The notes beneath the pieces are model-generated. The model was given only the letters and a program-made list of their open reading frames with translations, did not search any database and had not been told where the DNA came from. Of a stretch of 63,419 bases of DNA, positions 659 through 41,144 are shown piece after piece. Source of the stretch: Terriglobales bacterium. GTDB lineage: Bacteria > Acidobacteriota > Terriglobia > Terriglobales > Acidobacteriaceae. A program made the position numbers and the translations under genes. Numbering within the stretch: the stretch's first letter is position 1; each line of letters starts with the position of its first letter. The stretch spans positions 1 through 63,419 of the forward strand of contig DASPRM010000092.1 of NCBI GenBank assembly GCA_035624455.1, in the 5' to 3' direction.

Positions 659-1501
659 ATGATTACAGACTGCCACGTCCACATCGCACCGGTTGAGATG
701 TTTAAACCCGCGGCACTCGAGTTGATGAAAAAGAAGCGGCCGAATTTCGCCTCTATCGTCGAATACTGCCGCTCGCCAAAATCCTTTCTTCATCACCTCG
801 ACGACGCTGGAGTCGATCGCGCCATGCTTATCAATTATGTGGCGCCGGAAATCATTGGATTCACGGCTGGCGTCAATCAATGGGTGGTCGATTACTGCAA
901 GCACAATCCGTCGCGGCTACTGGCCTGCGGCAGCCTGCATCCGCGGCATAGCACCAACATCATGGCCGATGTGGAGCAGCTGGTTCGGCTGGGAGTGCGC
1001 CTGATTAAGATTCATCCACCACATCAACTTCTGTTCCCAAATGGCTATTTGCATGGGGTAAAGGAGCTGGAAATCATCTACCGGGCAGCCGAGGCGAACG
1101 GTATTCCGGTGATGTTCCACACCGGGACATCCATCTTTCCGGGCGCACGCAACAAATATGGCGATCCCATCCACATCGATGACGTCGCAGTGGACTTTCC
1201 GCGGCTTCGGATTCTGCTGGCGCACGGCGGTCGACCCCTGTGGATGAATACCGCATTTTTTCTGATACGGCGGCATGCGCACGTCTATCTCGATATCAGC
1301 AGCATCCCGCCGCAGGCTCTGCTGAAGTATTTTCCGCGGCTGGAGGAAATTGCTCAGAAAACGCTGTTCGGCAGCGACTGGCCTGGTCCGGGTGTACCGG
1401 AAATAAAAGGAAACATCGAAGCCTTTCGCGCTTTGCCGCTCAGTGAGACCGCCAAGGAGCAGATCCTAAGCCAGACCGCGCTCAGCCTGTGGCCGGCATG
1501 A
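659..1501 (+). CDS. Amidohydrolase-2 family metal-dependent hydrolase
   Basis: 280 residues with the TIM-barrel amidohydrolase signature. It has an N-terminal metal-binding HVH (ITDCHVHIAP), a middle HTGTS strand end, LLAHGG, and a late GSDWPGPG carrying the catalytic metal-ligand Asp. This family (PF04909) includes decarboxylases and lactone or amide hydrolases related to ACMSD. Length fits the family. It starts 39 bases after the TonB-like gene on the same strand. The substrate cannot be read from sequence. Confidence 0.75.
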   Translation: MITDCHVHIAPVEMFKPAALELMKKKRPNFASIVEYCRSPKSFLHHLDDAGVDRAMLINYVAPEIIGFTAGVNQWVVDYCKHNPSRLLACGSLHPRHSTNIMADVEQLVRLGVRLIKIHPPHQLLFPNGYLHGVKELEIIYRAAEANGIPVMFHTGTSIFPGARNKYGDPIHIDDVAVDFPRLRILLAHGGRPLWMNTAFFLIRRHAHVYLDISSIPPQALLKYFPRLEEIAQKTLFGSDWPGPGVPEIKGNIEAFRALPLSETAKEQILSQTALSLWPA

Positions 1502-1643
1502 TCGCCCTCAGCAGTTTCTGGCGTCACTCTCCCAGCAAGGGCGGAACATAAAGGGGTCGGAATCGAGTGAGACTTGGATTCACAGCGAATTCACCAAAGT
1601 CAAATCAAATGAGAGATAAAATTCGCAGCCTCAGGAGGCATTC

Positions 1644-2030
1644 ATGGAGCGCGCAACTGGTATTGGAGGCATCTTTTTCAAGTGCGATGATCCCGAAAAA
1701 ATGTATCAGTGGTACGAGAAGCACCTTGGGCTGAAGCGAGTTGGTGGAGCAGTCGGGTTCGAATGGCGTCACAAGGATGAGGACAAACCAGGAATGACCG
1801 TCTGGAGCCTGTTTCCGCGAACCTCTACCTATTTCGATCCCAGCCAGGCAAACTTCATGATCAATTACTGCGTGGAAAACCTGGACGCGCTGTTAGAGAG
1901 GCTGCGCGCGGAAGGCGTGGAAATCGATCCCAAACGCGAGGACCATGAGTACGGTCGATTCGCCTGGATTATGGATCCCGAAGGCAACCGCATCGAATTG
2001 TGGGAACCGCCGAAGACCCAGGCAATGTGA
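1644..2030 (+). CDS. VOC-superfamily (glyoxalase-like) protein
   Basis: 128 residues preceded by a clear AGGAGG ribosome binding site. The sequence shows paired betaalphabetabetabeta modules of the vicinal oxygen chelate fold: the N-terminal IGGIFFKCDDPEKMYQWYEK resembles the first module, and the C-terminal IMDPEGNRIELWEPP is the classic second-half motif with the metal-ligand Glu. Family members are glyoxalases, dioxygenases or resistance proteins. The exact reaction is not predictable. It ends convergently with the S46 peptidase, with a strong hairpin in between. Confidence 0.8.
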   Translation: MERATGIGGIFFKCDDPEKMYQWYEKHLGLKRVGGAVGFEWRHKDEDKPGMTVWSLFPRTSTYFDPSQANFMINYCVENLDALLERLRAEGVEIDPKREDHEYGRFAWIMDPEGNRIELWEPPKTQAM

Positions 2031-2037
2031 GTTTCCC

Positions 2038-2072
2038 GCCCTGTCGCTCCAAAAACCGGGAGCGACAAGGGC
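2038..2072. terminator. Strong hairpin between convergent genes
   Basis: GCCCTGTCGCTCC at 2038-2050 pairs with GGAGCGACAAGGGC at 2059-2072, with one bulge and an A-rich loop. It sits between the ends of the VOC gene and the S46 peptidase gene. Neither side carries a proper U-tract, so it may be an atypical terminator or an mRNA 3-prime stabiliser. Confidence 0.4.
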
Positions 2073-2117
2073 AGGCCACCCAATCTGCAAAAATCTCACG
2101 AAAAGGTTGCTGCAGCC

Positions 2118-4232
2118 CTATTTTCCCTTTGCCGCCCCCGCGTTGCCGTTCATCAGTTCATCGGCCAGGGCGGCAGCGCCGTAAATCTTCCGCAGTGCCT
2201 CCTGGATCGCTCGAGCATCCACATGAATGGATCGCGCTTGCTTGTCGCTGTAGGCAAACCGCCATGCCAGGGACTGGATGTTGCCATCAAAGATAATGCC
2301 GACTACTTCGCCATCTCTGTTGATCACCGGGCTGCCGGAATTGCCTCCGATAATGTCGGGCGTGGCGACAATATTGAAGGGGGCTTCTAAATCCAGCTTG
2401 GACTTGTTCTTCATCCAGCTTTCCGGCAATTGGTACGGATCCTTATTTCCATGTTCCGCAGCATGTTCGTAGGCTCCGCCCATGGTGGTGAAGTAGGGAA
2501 GATGTTTTCCGTTTTCTTCGTACCCGCGCACCGCACCGTAGCTCAAGCGCAGCGTGAAGGTGGCATCTGGCGGCACATTCAGTCCGCCTTGAGCAAATCG
2601 GGCCTTGGCCAGGATGCCGCCATCCCGTTTCTCCACGGCGTCCACCTGATCGTCATATTGCTTGCGGACTTTGCGGGCCTCGGGATCGATCATGCGCATC
2701 AGCACGATCAGTGGGTCTTTGCTGGCTTCGATCGCCGTCTGTCCGCCGTTATAGAGCTGCTTACGATAAGCAACGTCATCGAGTTTAGTGCCTGGGATCA
2801 GCTCGTCAGCTCGCTGCGCGGGCGTCTTGCCATTGAGGACTTTGCGCACCAGATCGGCATCTTCCTTTACCAGGCTCTGCATTTCCTGTAGCGACTCCGT
2901 CAAAATGGCGGTCTCCAGCGTTTTATAAATGGGTGCGGTGGAGAAGAGGTCCTGCTCGACGGAGGAAAGATTCGATTCCCGATACTCGCGAAGCCGCTCG
3001 CCATTGGGCTTGGTTTTTTCGGCCGCAAGGCGTACCAGGTCGCGGGCATAGCCGCACAGATTTCCACGGAAGCCCGCGCGCCGTTCAAAGTAAAACAGCG
3101 GGAAGAAAATCTGCCGCTGTACTTGCATGGCATTTTCAATCTCTCCCCAGGGATTTCCGAATTCCGCGCTCTTCTTGGGATCAGCCGCGACATCGTCCCT
3201 AAGCTTTTTCTCTTCTTCCTGCTTGCTTGCCAGAAGGCTGGGATCGTTAAGTCCGTCGTTGTAGCCAGTGATGGCCTTGAGGCTGTTTTCCAAGCTAAAG
3301 ATGCCTTCCTGGGCGATGCGGGCATTCTCCGGTGATTTCGCGGCGAAGTCTTTCAGCCAGGCAATCCGCCGCTTGAGCGATGCCAGCTGCCACGGATACT
3401 GCATGTCTTTAAGAAACTTCAACTGCGCCACGGTAAGCAGGCGGCCGGTGGATCCGGGGTTTCCCGAGACAAGAACCAGATCGCCTTCCTTAACGCCGGT
3501 TCGCGTCCAGCGAAGATAGTCTTTCAACTGCGCCGGTTTGTCGTTCTCGTAAACACGAAAGAAGGTGATATCCAGGTCGTAGCGCGGATAGTTGAAATTG
3601 TCGGGATCGCCGCCAAAAAATGCGGCGTCGAACTCGGGCGCGAATACCAGACGCACGTCTGTGTACTTCTTGTACTTATAGAGCTGGTACATGCCACCGG
3701 AGTAGAAAGTGACGACATCACAACGCAAACCGGTGCTGGTGTTGCAGTCACGCTCGATCGCAGCCATGGCAGAACGCATCGCCGCGCCTGCCTGCGCGGA
3801 ATTCATTTCCTTGGTTACGGCAGAATTGACTTTGTCGGTCACGTCCTCGATACCCACCAACTGGTTGAGCTCGAGATTGGGACACTTTGCTTCCTGGGCC
3901 CGAGTGGGGGCATAGAAGCCGGTTTTCATGTAGTCCTGGCCGCTCTTGGAGAGGTCCTGAATACATTCAGCTCCCACGTGGTGATTGGTGAATGTGAGGC
4001 CATCGGCAGAAACAAAGGAGCCCGATCCACCGTTGTTGAATCGCACCGAGGACAAACGTACGTGATCCAGCCAAGTTTGCGCAGGTTCGAAACCGTAAGC
4101 CGTCTTCACCTTGGCTTTGGGAAAAGCGTTGAACAGCCACATGCCTTCGTCCGCGGCTGCCCTGGGGAGCAGCGCGGCGAATAGGACAGCAAGTAAGCAG
4201 AGAGCTAAGTACCGCGATCTGGGAGATTGCAT
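2118..4232 (-). CDS. S46-family dipeptidyl-peptidase
   Basis: 704 residues, the usual length for DPP7/DPP11-type S46 peptidases. These chymotrypsin-fold serine exopeptidases remove dipeptides from oligopeptide N-termini in the periplasm. A signal peptide covers about residues 1-27 (LALCLLAVLFAALLPRAAA). The catalytic His lies in TNHHVGAE near residue 84. The region GGDPDNFNYPRYDLD carries the likely Asp. The nucleophile is Ser632 in GGNSGSPV. The specificity-determining Gly/Arg residue of DPP7 versus DPP11 was not assigned. It is a single transcription unit, convergent with the VOC gene and divergent from citrate synthase. Confidence 0.9.
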   Translation of the reverse strand: MQSPRSRYLALCLLAVLFAALLPRAAADEGMWLFNAFPKAKVKTAYGFEPAQTWLDHVRLSSVRFNNGGSGSFVSADGLTFTNHHVGAECIQDLSKSGQDYMKTGFYAPTRAQEAKCPNLELNQLVGIEDVTDKVNSAVTKEMNSAQAGAAMRSAMAAIERDCNTSTGLRCDVVTFYSGGMYQLYKYKKYTDVRLVFAPEFDAAFFGGDPDNFNYPRYDLDITFFRVYENDKPAQLKDYLRWTRTGVKEGDLVLVSGNPGSTGRLLTVAQLKFLKDMQYPWQLASLKRRIAWLKDFAAKSPENARIAQEGIFSLENSLKAITGYNDGLNDPSLLASKQEEEKKLRDDVAADPKKSAEFGNPWGEIENAMQVQRQIFFPLFYFERRAGFRGNLCGYARDLVRLAAEKTKPNGERLREYRESNLSSVEQDLFSTAPIYKTLETAILTESLQEMQSLVKEDADLVRKVLNGKTPAQRADELIPGTKLDDVAYRKQLYNGGQTAIEASKDPLIVLMRMIDPEARKVRKQYDDQVDAVEKRDGGILAKARFAQGGLNVPPDATFTLRLSYGAVRGYEENGKHLPYFTTMGGAYEHAAEHGNKDPYQLPESWMKNKSKLDLEAPFNIVATPDIIGGNSGSPVINRDGEVVGIIFDGNIQSLAWRFAYSDKQARSIHVDARAIQEALRKIYGAAALADELMNGNAGAAKGK

Positions 4233-37747: not shown

Positions 37748-39547
37748 TCACCTGCCGCCCGAGACGGGTGCGGCTTCGGGGTCGGGCGCGGCCTCCTTGT
37801 AGAGATTCTCGATCTGGTCGTGGTAGCGCTCCTCCAGAACCCGCCGCCGCAGCTTCATGGTGGGGGTCAGAATACCGTTGGCGATGGTGAAGTCGTCAGA
37901 GATTAAGAGGAACTTCTTGATCTTCTCGAATTGTGCCAGCTTGGCATTGACCTCTCTCAGCATGTTCTCGTAGAGGCCCCTTGTCTGCTGCAGCTCCACC
38001 AGCTGCTGCCGAGACTGGTACTGAAGGTTGCTGTTGCGGGCCCATTCTTCCAGGACATCAAACGCAGGGGCGATGATCACCGCCGGGAACTTGCGCCGGT
38101 CACCCACGATGGAGGCTTCGGCTACAAAGGGATAGCTCTTAAGAAGGCCTTCGATCGGCTGGGGGGCGATGAACTTGCCTCCGGAGGTCTTGATCAGGTC
38201 TTTCTTGCGGTCGGTGACACACAGAAATCCGTCGGAATCGATGTGACCGACATCGCCAGTCTTGAACCAGCCATCGACGAAGGCGTTCTGAGTTTCCTCA
38301 GGACGATTCCAGTAACTGCGAAAAATGGAGGGACCCTTAACCAGGATCTCGCCGTCCTCGGCAATGCGAACTTCGACGTTGGACATCGGTCTTCCAACCG
38401 TCCCCAGCTTGTAGACGGAAGGGGTATTGACGGCGATCACAGGCGAGGTTTCCGTAAGCCCGTAGCCTTCATTGATGCGGACGCCAATATCCGCATACCA
38501 CTCCGCCAGTTCGCGTCCCAGAGGCGCGCCCCCGGAGATGAATGAGCGCACCCGTCCTCCCAGGCCTGCCAGCACTTTGCTGTAAAGCAGACGGTTAGCA
38601 ATCTTCCAGGTCAGGCTTGAGGGCGTTTTGCCAGTAACGATTTCGTTGCGATGCTGGCGGCCAACGGCCATCGCCCAGTGGTAAACAAGCCGCTTAATGC
38701 CGGAGTGAGCCTTGGTTTCCACCTGCGTCCGGACCTTTTCGTATACGCGGGGCACGCACACCATAGTGGTGGGCCGAACCTCGTTGACCACCTCCACCAA
38801 TTTCTCGATACGCGGGCAATAAGCAATGGTCGTACCCATGTAGAAGTGCACGTAGTCCACATGGCGGGCAGTCACGTGCGACAGGGGCAGGAAGGAAACA
38901 TGCACTTCGCCGGGACCAAACCAGCTTCGCCACTGGTGAACTTCCGCTTCCACGTTGGAAGCAAGATTGCCGTGTGTGAGCATGACTCCCTTGGAGATAC
39001 CGGTGGTCCCGGAGGTGTACATGATAGTGGCAAGGTCATCAGGTCCTATGGCCTGCGCGGTTGCATCGAAGGCGCTATCCGCGGAAGTGGGGCCGCCGTG
39101 CATGAGGCGGTGCATGGGTATGGCATCGGTCACGCCAACGTAATCCATCACTACGATGTGCTCGAGATGAGTCTGATCTTTGATGGATTTGATCTTCTGA
39201 AGCTGTTCGGTAGTAGAAACAAAGATGACGCGCGTGCCGGAATCGTTGAGCAGGAAGGCGATTTGTTCGCCGGTGAGCGTCGGATAGAGTGGAACGACCA
39301 CGGCGCCAATAGCCATGGTGGCAAAATCTGCCACCGCCCATTCCGGCCGGTTTTCACTGAGTATGGCGACTCGATCACCCTTGGCGATACCCCATTGCAT
39401 AAGCGCCCGCGCGGTACCCACCACGTCGCGGTAGAGCTCGCGGGAGGAGATGGGAATCCATTTGACAGTCTGCTTGAAAAGCATGACCTGATCGCTGTTT
39501 CGAGTGACCGGGGCGCGGAAAACGTCGTTGACTGTGCGCAAGCTCAT
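37748..39547 (-). CDS. Long-chain acyl-CoA synthetase (AMP-forming)
   Basis: 599 residues from the ATG at 39547 (MSLRTVND); the frame extends another 115 codons upstream without family features. AMP-binding P-loop YTSGTTGISKG is followed by MLTHGNL. Other motifs: GYGLTET, GWFKTGDVG, and FACS-like DRKKDLIKTSGGKFIAPQ. The enzyme activates fatty acids to acyl-CoA. Sequence order fits the FadD15-like family found in actinobacteria and acidobacteria. Divergent from the peroxiredoxin gene, 172 bases away. Confidence 0.9.
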   Translation of the reverse strand: MSLRTVNDVFRAPVTRNSDQVMLFKQTVKWIPISSRELYRDVVGTARALMQWGIAKGDRVAILSENRPEWAVADFATMAIGAVVVPLYPTLTGEQIAFLLNDSGTRVIFVSTTEQLQKIKSIKDQTHLEHIVVMDYVGVTDAIPMHRLMHGGPTSADSAFDATAQAIGPDDLATIMYTSGTTGISKGVMLTHGNLASNVEAEVHQWRSWFGPGEVHVSFLPLSHVTARHVDYVHFYMGTTIAYCPRIEKLVEVVNEVRPTTMVCVPRVYEKVRTQVETKAHSGIKRLVYHWAMAVGRQHRNEIVTGKTPSSLTWKIANRLLYSKVLAGLGGRVRSFISGGAPLGRELAEWYADIGVRINEGYGLTETSPVIAVNTPSVYKLGTVGRPMSNVEVRIAEDGEILVKGPSIFRSYWNRPEETQNAFVDGWFKTGDVGHIDSDGFLCVTDRKKDLIKTSGGKFIAPQPIEGLLKSYPFVAEASIVGDRRKFPAVIIAPAFDVLEEWARNSNLQYQSRQQLVELQQTRGLYENMLREVNAKLAQFEKIKKFLLISDDFTIANGILTPTMKLRRRVLEERYHDQIENLYKEAAPDPEAAPVSGGR

Positions 39548-39719
39548 GGCAAAGCGTGGAATCCCGGCCGACGAGATTCCGCCTGGGTGTCCTCCTGACC
39601 TCCGCATGTATTTTATTCTTCCAGACGATTCAGATTCCATTACTAGGAACCAACGACGATAGCATTCCCGAATTAGAATGTACGCTGCGCTGAGCAGTGG
39701 ATTAGCGGAAGGAGAGAGG

Positions 39720-40316
39720 ATGCCCATGAGAATTCGCCAGGGAGTCAAGTTGGCATGCCTGGGGCTGGTGCTGGCATGCATGCTGCTGTCTGTAGGGAAA
39801 GCCAATGGCCAAGCCAAACCAGAGCCGGCAGCCCCAAAGATCAAGGTGGGAGACACGGCGCCGGATTTCACCCTGCTGACGTTTGATGGCAAAGATCTGA
39901 CCCCGGTTTCGCTGCACGATTTCCGCGGGAAGAAGAATGTCGCCCTGGCATTTTATGTGTTCGCGTTCACCGGCGGTTGAACCCAGGAGATGAAGGCCTT
40001 CCAGCAGAATCTGCAAAAGCTGGAGGCGGCCGACACCCAGGTCCTGGGTGTGAGCATCGACAGTCCTTTCGCCAATCAGGCTTGGGCACAACAGAATGGC
40101 TTAACGTTTCCCCTGCTGGGAGATGTCTCCGGCGCGGTTACGCGTGAATATGGCCTGCTGAAGCCCCTGGAGGTTAAGGGAGTAAGGCTGGAGTCCGCCA
40201 GGCGAGCCACGTTTCTCATCGACAAACAAGGCAAGGTCGTGGAGATGCAGGTGGACAAGGAGGCTGTAGATCCCAGCAAGATTGTGACCGAGTGCGAGCG
40301 CAGGAAGAAGACGTAG
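39720..40316 (+). CDS. Exported selenocysteine-containing peroxiredoxin (UGA-recoded)
   Basis: 198 residues from the ATG at 39720 (GGAAGGAG upstream; 39726 is possible). A signal peptide covers about 1-31 (LACLGLVLACMLLSVGKANG). The thioredoxin-fold AhpC/TSA domain begins KVGDTAPDFTLLTFDGK. Codon 87, UGA at 39978-39980, falls in FAFTGG-U-TQEM, exactly where peroxidatic Cys stands in FTGGCTKEM-type peroxiredoxins. The frame then continues with normal peroxiredoxin sequence (VLGVSIDSPFANQAWAQQ, LTFPLLGDVSG, ATFLIDKQGKVVEMQVD). A single Cys near the C-terminus (TEC) may resolve the Sec. A SECIS-like hairpin follows at 39996. A sense-to-stop mutation or sequencing error is the alternative, but the stop hits only the catalytic position. 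It reduces peroxides in the periplasm. Confidence 0.85.
39996..40027 (+). promoter_or_regulatory. SECIS-like hairpin
   Basis: GCC-T-TCCAGC (39996-40005) pairs with GCTGGAGGC (40019-40027): nine pairs with one bulged U. The 13-base loop AGAAUCUGCAAAA has a G as its second base and begins 25 bases after the UGA. Spacing of about 16-37 bases, a bulged U and an early loop G match the known bacterial SECIS pattern. It lies inside the coding frame, as bacterial SECIS elements do. Confidence 0.65.
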
Positions 40317-40336
40317 GAAGCTCAAGGAAAACGCGA

Positions 40337-40387
40337 GATCTTTCGACTCGGACGAGGATTTGTAAACCTCGTCCTCGCTCAAGATGA
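40337..40387. repeat. Inverted copy of the dispersed element with an 8-bp hairpin
   Basis: GAGATCTTTCGACTCG and CTCAAGATGACA are the inverted ends of the TCATCCTGAGC family. Between them GGACGAGG (40350-40357) pairs with CCTCGTCC (40367-40374). It separates the peroxiredoxin gene from the convergent response regulator and may serve as their shared terminator. Confidence 0.5.
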
Positions 40388-40439
40388 CATCCAGAGGGCG
40401 AGGCTACCTTTTGGGTGGCTCCGCACACGTGCTGAAACT

Positions 40440-41144
40440 TCACTCGCCAGGTTCGAAACGGTATCCGACCCAGGGTTCGGTAAGGATGTAGCGGGGAGAG
40501 CTGGCCTCAGGCTCAATCTTTTTCCGCAGTTGGCCGACAAAAACGCGGAGATACTCGGGTTGCTCGACGCTGTTGGCTCCCCAAATAGCACTTAACAATG
40601 CGCGATGTGTAATGACCTTCCCCGGGTGCTGGGCCAGGTAGACGAGCAAATCAAATTCCTTGGGTGTAAGGCGCACCGGTTGTCCGCCGACGATGACCTC
40701 ATGGGCGGCCAGGTCGATGTGAAAGTCGCCCACCTCGATGACTTGCGGTGCGGCCGTCTCTGGAGCGGGCGTGCGCCGAAGATGGGCTCGTACCCGCGCC
40801 ACCAGCTCTTTCATACTGAAAGGCTTGGTAACGTAATCGTCTGCGCCGGCATCCAGCGCTTCCACCTTGTTGCGCTCCTGTCCTCGCACCGAGAGAACGA
40901 TGATGGGCAGCTGTGACTTCTCGCGAATCTTCCGGCACAAAGCGATACCGTCCAGATTCGGCATGGCGAGGTCAGTGATTACCAGATGGGGCGTCCAGTC
41001 GCGGAGCACCTCGAGTGCCTGTTCGCCGTCGTTGGCGGTGCGGATGTCGTAGCCTTGGGCGCCCAGAGTCGTACGCAGCACGCGCGTGATCTGGGGCTCG
41101 TCGTCGACTACCAGGATGCGCCGATGATCAGGGCTGGGATTCAA
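40440..41144 (-). CDS. OmpR-family response regulator, KdpE-like
   Basis: 234 residues. Receiver domain with acidic pocket VVDDE and phospho-acceptor Asp in LVITDLAMPN, plus the KPF switch. A winged-helix DNA-binding domain follows (LTPKEFDLLVYLAQHPGKVI, ending YILTEPWVGYRFEP, the typical KdpE C-terminus). No kinase or kdp transporter genes are adjacent. It lies at the downstream end of the central-carbon gene run, so it may be cotranscribed with gntK, or stand alone. Confidence 0.9.
   Translation of the reverse strand: MNPSPDHRRILVVDDEPQITRVLRTTLGAQGYDIRTANDGEQALEVLRDWTPHLVITDLAMPNLDGIALCRKIREKSQLPIIVLSVRGQERNKVEALDAGADDYVTKPFSMKELVARVRAHLRRTPAPETAAPQVIEVGDFHIDLAAHEVIVGGQPVRLTPKEFDLLVYLAQHPGKVITHRALLSAIWGANSVEQPEYLRVFVGQLRKKIEPEASSPRYILTEPWVGYRFEPGE

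Follow-up and report, generated by a model that had tools for sequence, protein, structure and literature searches.

A gene of soil Acidobacteriota that appears split in two is very probably, judging from its sequence and its relatives, a single exported antioxidant enzyme, a peroxiredoxin in which a stop codon is read as selenocysteine (Sec). The gene lies in a stretch of 63,419 nucleotides from a Terriglobales bacterium (contig DASPRM010000092.1; hereafter, the window), and its features are collected in Table 1. A selenium-dependent, probably exported peroxide defence is indicated in many members of this major soil phylum, and its gene is cut in two when read by the standard code. The explanation that joins the evidence, namely an exported Sec87 peroxiredoxin whose Sec is inserted by SelA, SelB, SelC and SelD via structured downstream mRNA and whose Cys192 is probably the resolving residue, would in our judgement be highly likely to hold.

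The frame, its conservation, the Sec machinery and an RNA signal tied to the UGA are established by comparison with relatives; we infer Sec insertion itself, export, peroxidase activity, the role of Cys192 and the choice of the hairpin bound by SelB. In the proposed mechanism, SelA, SelB, SelC and SelD would insert Sec at the UGA, directed by the mRNA just downstream, with a proximal, large-loop hairpin (H1) and a distal one (H2) whose small GU loop would be typical of SelB-binding SECIS elements. The product would be exported to the periplasm or the cell surface, where Sec87 of the folded enzyme would attack peroxide. Cys192, the only other redox residue downstream, would probably resolve the selenenic acid as a selenenylsulfide, which a thiol donor would then reduce.

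Table 1. Features of the Sec-peroxiredoxin locus, in window coordinates.
Feature	Position	Strand	Description and basis
AGGAG ribosome-binding site	39710..39714	+	5 nt before ATG; sequence
Exported Sec-peroxiredoxin coding sequence (probable export)	39720..40316	+	198 residues; ATG at 39720, stop TAG
Predicted signal peptide, residues 1-32	39720..39815	+	sequence and crude family-wide score; cleavage site inferred
UGA read as selenocysteine (probable), peroxidatic residue 87	39978..39980	+	TGA in 177/177 loci; Sec machinery
Hairpin H1	39998..40026	+	8 bp, 13-nt loop starting 25 nt after UGA; 92.1% of pair cells paired in 89 F/L sequences
Hairpin H2	40033..40051	+	ACACCCAG-GUC-CUGGGUGU, 3-nt loop starting 60 nt after UGA; 97.9% of pair cells paired in 89 F/L sequences
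Cys 192 codon	40293..40295	+	sole Cys after Sec; candidate resolving residue; invariant column in alignments A1 and A2

An in-frame UGA is conserved at the peroxidatic position

The ORFs at 39678-39980 and 39990-40316 fuse to one 198-residue AhpC/TSA frame if the TGA between them is read as a residue. A sequence-only reading of this DNA had proposed that the UGA joins two ORFs of the same frame, that it falls on the peroxidatic residue, and that standard annotation would split the gene. The joined frame was confirmed to be intact up to its TAG; residue 87, in the context FTGG-U-TQEM, occupies the peroxidatic position; and translation with table 11 does give two ORFs. The sequence points of that reading were all right, and the present analysis adds to them an invariant C-terminal Cys, a missing motif Pro and a two-hairpin RNA signal.

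The codon was then followed through the relatives. Among 298 sampled genomes of the order, searched with matches listed down to about E 5e-23, 87 matched at E<=1.1e-32, each with exactly one TGA among the matches listed. Across 396 sampled genomes of the phylum, all 38 matches listed at E<=1e-30, in 37 genomes, likewise had exactly one TGA. Named GTDB genomes were scanned with an alignment masked at the Sec column and with patterns avoiding that column; by title and established taxonomy, the best 80 of the 443 relatives were Acidobacteriota MAGs, bar one Myxococcaceae MAG and one classed just as bacterium. Some species are present in both genome collections. All 177 loci read have TGA at the Sec column (153 of them are distinct over 183 nt), and no Cys orthologue of the exported family occurred among these loci, which include the best 80 of 443 GTDB relatives. 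Homologues had been expected to carry either Sec or Cys at this column, and those read all have the UGA at the redox position, which argues that it is not there by chance. The member titled outside Acidobacteriota (Myxococcaceae MAG, JADGRA010000064.1) is 52% identical, and its placement reflects either gene transfer or a binning error.

Two trivial explanations bear on this column. A sequencing or assembly error in a Cys codon, which the earlier reading had flagged as TGC or TGT at 39978 and which a fragmented assembly of 166 contigs might suggest, is excluded because the same TGA stands in 153 distinct relatives; we find it scarcely credible. Genome-wide reassignment of UGA to Trp, Gly or Cys would leave the frame open as well, but TGA is also an ordinary stop, ending 59 of the 153 relatives' genes and 12 of 29 long non-overlapping window ORFs, and the chance of such a reassignment seems vanishingly small.

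The selenocysteine machinery accompanies the gene

The genome to which the window belongs (4.39 Mb in 166 contigs, 97.7% complete) holds selA above the cut-off, selB (351 bits), selD (360 bits, itself with one in-frame TGA) and a tRNA-Sec (66.4 bits) with the anticodon tca (UCA). All four components on which the sequence-only reading depended, selA, selB, selC and selD, are therefore present in the same genome, and the objection that the machinery might be missing falls away.

Of the 298 sampled genomes of the order, 130 have a selB match at E<=1e-80. Such a match accompanied the peroxiredoxin gene in 81 of the 87 carriers, and the other six had selA; 49 of the 298 genomes had selB without a match to the gene, and 162 had neither. 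The association between the gene and selB gave a Fisher p of 7e-31 over the 298 genomes, a value inflated by ignoring kinship. These data also bear on the view that translation truly ends at the UGA, the locus being a pseudogene or the source of a short exported fragment. UGA is a normal stop in the window's genome and the table 11 reading gives two ORFs, as that view would have it, but the downstream sequence and the active-site residues are conserved in 153 distinct genes and every one of the 87 carriers in the order has selB or selA, so we hold a real stop to be very unlikely. This comparative evidence gives strong support to Sec decoding in a probably exported peroxiredoxin.

The joined protein has a peroxiredoxin fold, a single downstream Cys and a signal-peptide-like start

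The joined protein matched PF00578 at 4.9e-35 over residues 43-175 (120.6 bits; cut-off 26), which places it in the peroxiredoxin superfamily and bears out the claim of an AhpC/TSA fold on both sides of the UGA; it also matched PF08534 at 4.1e-24. A peroxiredoxin motif PxxxTxxU, with Pro at Sec-7, is given in the available text of PMC13188914. Among the 153 exported proteins, at least 151 have Thr at -3. The residue at Sec-7 is Val in 95, Ile in 52, Pro in 4, Ser in 1 and Leu in 1; the window has Val, and the PxxxT(S)xxC/U motif with its Pro is accordingly absent there and retains the Pro in 4 of 153 proteins. Membership in the superfamily is upheld despite the missing Pro because of the profile match and the fold.

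The invariant columns of a 28-row alignment include Thr48, Sec51, Arg126 and Cys156, corresponding to Thr84, Sec87, Arg162 and Cys192 of the window, and these four are likewise invariant in 54 rows. Exactly one Cys follows the Sec in 153 of 153 distinct proteins, near the C terminus and 85-125 residues on. Given this single Cys and established peroxiredoxin chemistry, a Sec-Cys resolving cycle involving Cys192 is likely. The position of the Cys in the exported family recalls human PRDX5, in which the resolving Cys lies in a C-terminal helix. An AlphaFold2 model (54 sequences, Cys replacing Sec; pLDDT 92.7, pTM 0.89) puts the Sec close to where helix 49-60 begins, and the Cys lies in the final helix (150-161).

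The window protein begins with the signal-peptide-like segment MPMRIRQGVKLACLGLVLACMLLSVGKANGQA. By a crude score of our own, a hydrophobic N-terminal segment was present in 151 of 153 relatives, with K or R preceding it in 150; an AxA-like site was scored in 137 and a lipobox-like match in 4. The signal peptide claimed earlier is plausible on the N-terminal sequence and on this score.

Conserved RNA hairpins follow the UGA

When synonymous codons were shuffled within each of the 153 genes, RNA folding stood out sharply right behind the UGA: the mean z was -1.40 over codons 0-17 and -1.41 over codons 4-21, and the lowest value among the other codon ranges (29 in all) was -0.71. RNA structure after the UGA exceeds the needs of the protein and no Cys orthologue occurs among the loci read, so the combination of Cys homologues and no SECIS, which would have told against the sequence-only reading, does not describe this family.

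The 153 sequences were split by codon +7 into a Y group (Tyr; 64) and an F/L group (Phe or Leu; 89, the window's clade). The Y group has a single hairpin with a 3-nt loop 23 nt after the UGA (GGC in 36, GTC in 13, GGA in 10); 83.2% of its pair cells are paired, versus at most 52.8% in slid versions. The F/L group forms H1 and H2 (Table 1), the slid versions of which reached at most 55.8% and 53.7%, respectively. For H1, the mean z was -1.63 in F/L and -1.03 in the window gene; the top pair is formed in just 57 of 89 F/L sequences, and the first two loop positions are G in 75 of 89. For H2, the mean z was -1.95 in F/L and -2.31 in the window gene. The H2 loop is GUN in the 87 F/L sequences without upstream codon loss, and its Gly codon is GGT in 84 of these 87, whereas GGT makes up 177 of the 964 Gly codons in the rest of these genes. 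The two sequences with one codon fewer upstream (L133 and L180) still form H2, in a shifted position. H2 gave no signal in the 64 sequences of the Y group (z 0.11); a short H2 motif occurs in 7 of these 64, among which, in the tree described below, L161 falls in the F part and L191 and L195 fall among the Y rows.

In an alternative fold, ACCCAGGA (39981-39988, right after the UGA) pairs with most of the H2 3' arm (40042-40049), and this pairing would compete with H2 in the window gene. The single-sequence fold of 39972-40035 was unremarkable against dinucleotide shuffles (z -0.22), and Rfam returned nothing relevant at E<=10 in 39600-40500. The motif CCCAGGTNNTGGG has five sites in the window's genome, versus one for the reversed-pattern control. 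Apart from the window gene, L307 alone has a TGA upstream (74 nt) in an open frame of sufficient length, in which no protein was recognisable by eye.

A cytosolic paralogue ties the hairpins to UGA use

A cytosolic Sec-peroxiredoxin paralogue provided a natural control. It was found in 59 of 298 genomes at E<=1e-40 (72 matches listed). The 81 loci read (62 TGA) cover every listed match but one, at a contig end (G206); less 10 duplicates, 71 remained, with TGA in 53, Cys in 8 and Ser in 10. The mean z for H1 and H2 was -2.04 and -2.09 in the TGA loci, 0.25 and -0.63 in the Cys loci, and 0.04 and 0.33 in the Ser loci. Comparison of TGA with the rest gave one-sided p values of 1.3e-9 (H1) and 9e-8 (H2), both inflated by ignoring kinship. 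All 53 cytosolic TGA loci and 82 of 87 exported F/L genes contain the motif CCCAGGTNNTGG, against 2 of 8 Cys loci and none of 10 Ser loci. The H1 and H2 signals are absent or weak in most Cys and Ser cytosolic homologues, although L245, a Cys member, retains a hairpin of -11.9 kcal/mol and a weaker hairpin persists in L249. Being more distant from the query (44-53% identical), the Ser members serve less well as a control than do the Cys members (54-68%, leaving out the query itself). A conserved RNA structure is found after the UGA in the exported family, and its link to UGA use comes from the cytosolic paralogue.

The exported and cytosolic Sec-peroxiredoxins are about 38-41% identical. Pair 57-71 goes from A-U in the exported family (84/87) to G-C in the cytosolic one (51/53), and pair 56-72 from C-G (76/87) to U-A (46/53); these changes between the families are compensatory. 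Of the 53 cytosolic TGA members, 35 fail to form the pair adjoining the H2 loop, which enlarges that loop to 5 nt, and 15 have a break at one inner pair.

The window's genome itself carries a cytosolic Cys paralogue (G000:C103:3688-4179; L214, L237) on the minus strand, about 0.6 kb from selB (1169-3079). Most of its listed relatives carry TGA at that position together with both hairpins, and the Cys form is likely a Sec-to-Cys change with loss of the RNA signal. Four other cytosolic Cys forms, L245, L248, L249 and L251 (G090, G099, G271 and G125), all belong to genus g25; L248 and L249 still keep the CCCAGGTNNTGG motif, and decay of the SECIS may be visible step by step in this genus. Ten distant cytosolic paralogues (L268-L277) have Ser (AGC, AGT or TCA) at the peroxidatic position. 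A TGA copy is also held by 9 of the 10 genomes with a Ser paralogue, and the Ser paralogues are possibly non-peroxidase partners.

The SECIS is probably bipartite

The bacterial SECIS model in the available text of PMC13188914 has a loop of 3-9 nt at 16-37 nt from the UGA. The Y-group consensus hairpin fits it (3-nt loop, 23 nt). The window does not fully fit: H1 lies at 25 nt with a 13-nt loop, and the 3-nt GUC loop of H2 lies at 60 nt. The selD of the window's genome has the hairpin GTCCAGC-GGT-GCTGGAC, with its loop 20 nt after the UGA (frame identified by eye); it appeared in a 90-nt fold and a local fold, and a 60-nt fold preferred another structure. The E. coli fdhF SECIS has a GGUC loop.

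The GGU/GU loop of H2 resembles the selD loop of the same genome, and the same SelB must read both the exported gene and selD. GGU occurs in the H1 loop of none of the 89 F/L sequences. From the 60 nt that separate H2 from the UGA, folding out H1 (29 nt) leaves 31 nt. Because of the selD-like H2 loop, the H1 loops without GGU and this spacing, we favour a bipartite SECIS, which is probably what directs decoding here. The main rival assigns the SECIS role to H1 alone and treats H2 as an RNA element that is unrelated or auxiliary, the signal being classical apart from its large loop. The H1 loop does stand at the classical distance, begins with G at its first two positions in most F/L sequences, and is linked to the UGA in the cytosolic paralogue. 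Against this, 13 nt breaks the 3-9 nt rule, GGU is missing from every F/L H1 loop, and it is H2, UGA-linked too, that carries the GU loop like that of selD. We regard H1 alone as doubtful, though to be taken seriously.

The bipartite reading can be widened into a proposal in which two paralogous Acidobacteriota selenoenzymes would share one bipartite SECIS, with SelB binding H2, H1 (about 29 nt) folded out and an effective spacing of about 31 nt; the exported enzyme would be obligately Sec, its gene being lost rather than its Sec swapped for Cys, and the Sec chemistry would accompany loss of the motif Pro. We advance it tentatively, with slightly more doubt than belief. With H2 at 60 nt, outside the 16-37 nt rule, selenoproteins of such a layout may escape searches built on that rule. 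The Cys and Ser homologues, in which the hairpin signals are mostly gone, form a natural control that makes the spacing rule of bacterial Sec decoding directly testable.

Gene neighbourhood and tree

No clear operon partner was found, the same-strand clusters reaching 14-15 of 81 loci at scattered distances. In the window, an AMP-binding (acyl-CoA ligase-like) gene (37748-39892, minus strand) lies divergently upstream of the Sec-peroxiredoxin. Of the 81 loci, 36 have such a divergent ligase, made up of the window, 34 of 49 F/L loci and 1 of 31 Y loci. The largest cluster of recurrent neighbours (58 loci) lies on the opposite strand at the gene itself and was taken for antisense frames. A plasmid search gave no match at 1e-25.

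The nearest Cys sequences were sought among 39 sequences, of which 20 were matches uninterrupted by a stop and 19 were further loci, 13 of these with TGA. An exported Cys group was rejected as the orthologue; it represents a distinct paralogue, with the motif Pro retained and the other Cys lying about 36 residues further along. A tree of 124 rows places it outside the F/L part, under a label (CysExp) that includes two TGA cytosolic rows (L224 and L229). The tree used 86 of the 153 exported rows, about half of the F and Y rows and the partial sequence L213 having been dropped. Support for its deep branches is low (44), the cytosolic group and the Y rows spread out as a fan without resolved order, and the bootstrap had not stabilised; monophyly of the exported Sec family is accordingly not established by it.

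Comparison with known systems

Sec-containing peroxiredoxins of the TxxU type are already known as a kind, and a review, in its available text, recognises them with citation of the Eubacterium acidaminophilum enzyme (PMC13188914). The accessible parts of two other papers count four selenoproteins of three families in Acidobacteria (PMC1794560) and three selenoproteins in Occallatibacter riparius (PMC12013277), and the exported family could be among those counted. No description of an exported Sec-peroxiredoxin family or of a two-hairpin bacterial SECIS was found in the accessible texts of PMC1794560, PMC12013277, PMC13188914, PMC5029168, PMC1088965, PMC8659212 and PMC10778597.

With PrxU of E. 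acidaminophilum (NCBIfam NF040737), the present family shares the AhpC/TSA fold and the TxxU active site. The window protein scores 74.8 bits against this model, under the curated cut-off of 270, and the family differs in its signal-peptide-like start, in mostly lacking the motif Pro and in its single C-terminal Cys after the Sec. The best NCBIfam match is Bcp/PrxQ (NF006960), at 77.9 bits and again under the curated cut-off (140), and BcpB heads the structural matches (Z 24.4, rmsd 1.9, 152 aligned). PrxQ has a Cys five residues after the peroxidatic residue, which the present family lacks. AhpE of Mycobacterium tuberculosis is among the closest solved folds and has the highest identity there (Z 23.4, rmsd 1.6, 149 aligned, 36%); it is titled 1-Cys, whereas the present family has Sec, an invariant second redox residue in Cys192 and probable export. 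The cytosolic Sec-peroxiredoxin of the same order (TPxU motif) has its UGA at the same column and the same H1 and H2 but, unlike the exported family, shows no visible signal peptide, retains the motif Pro in most of its rows and exists in Cys and Ser forms. Like the bacterial SECIS consensus of the bSECISearch model, the present signal lies in the coding region downstream of the UGA and has G in the first loop positions; it differs in having two hairpins, a large H1 loop and an H2 loop at 60 nt rather than 16-37 nt.
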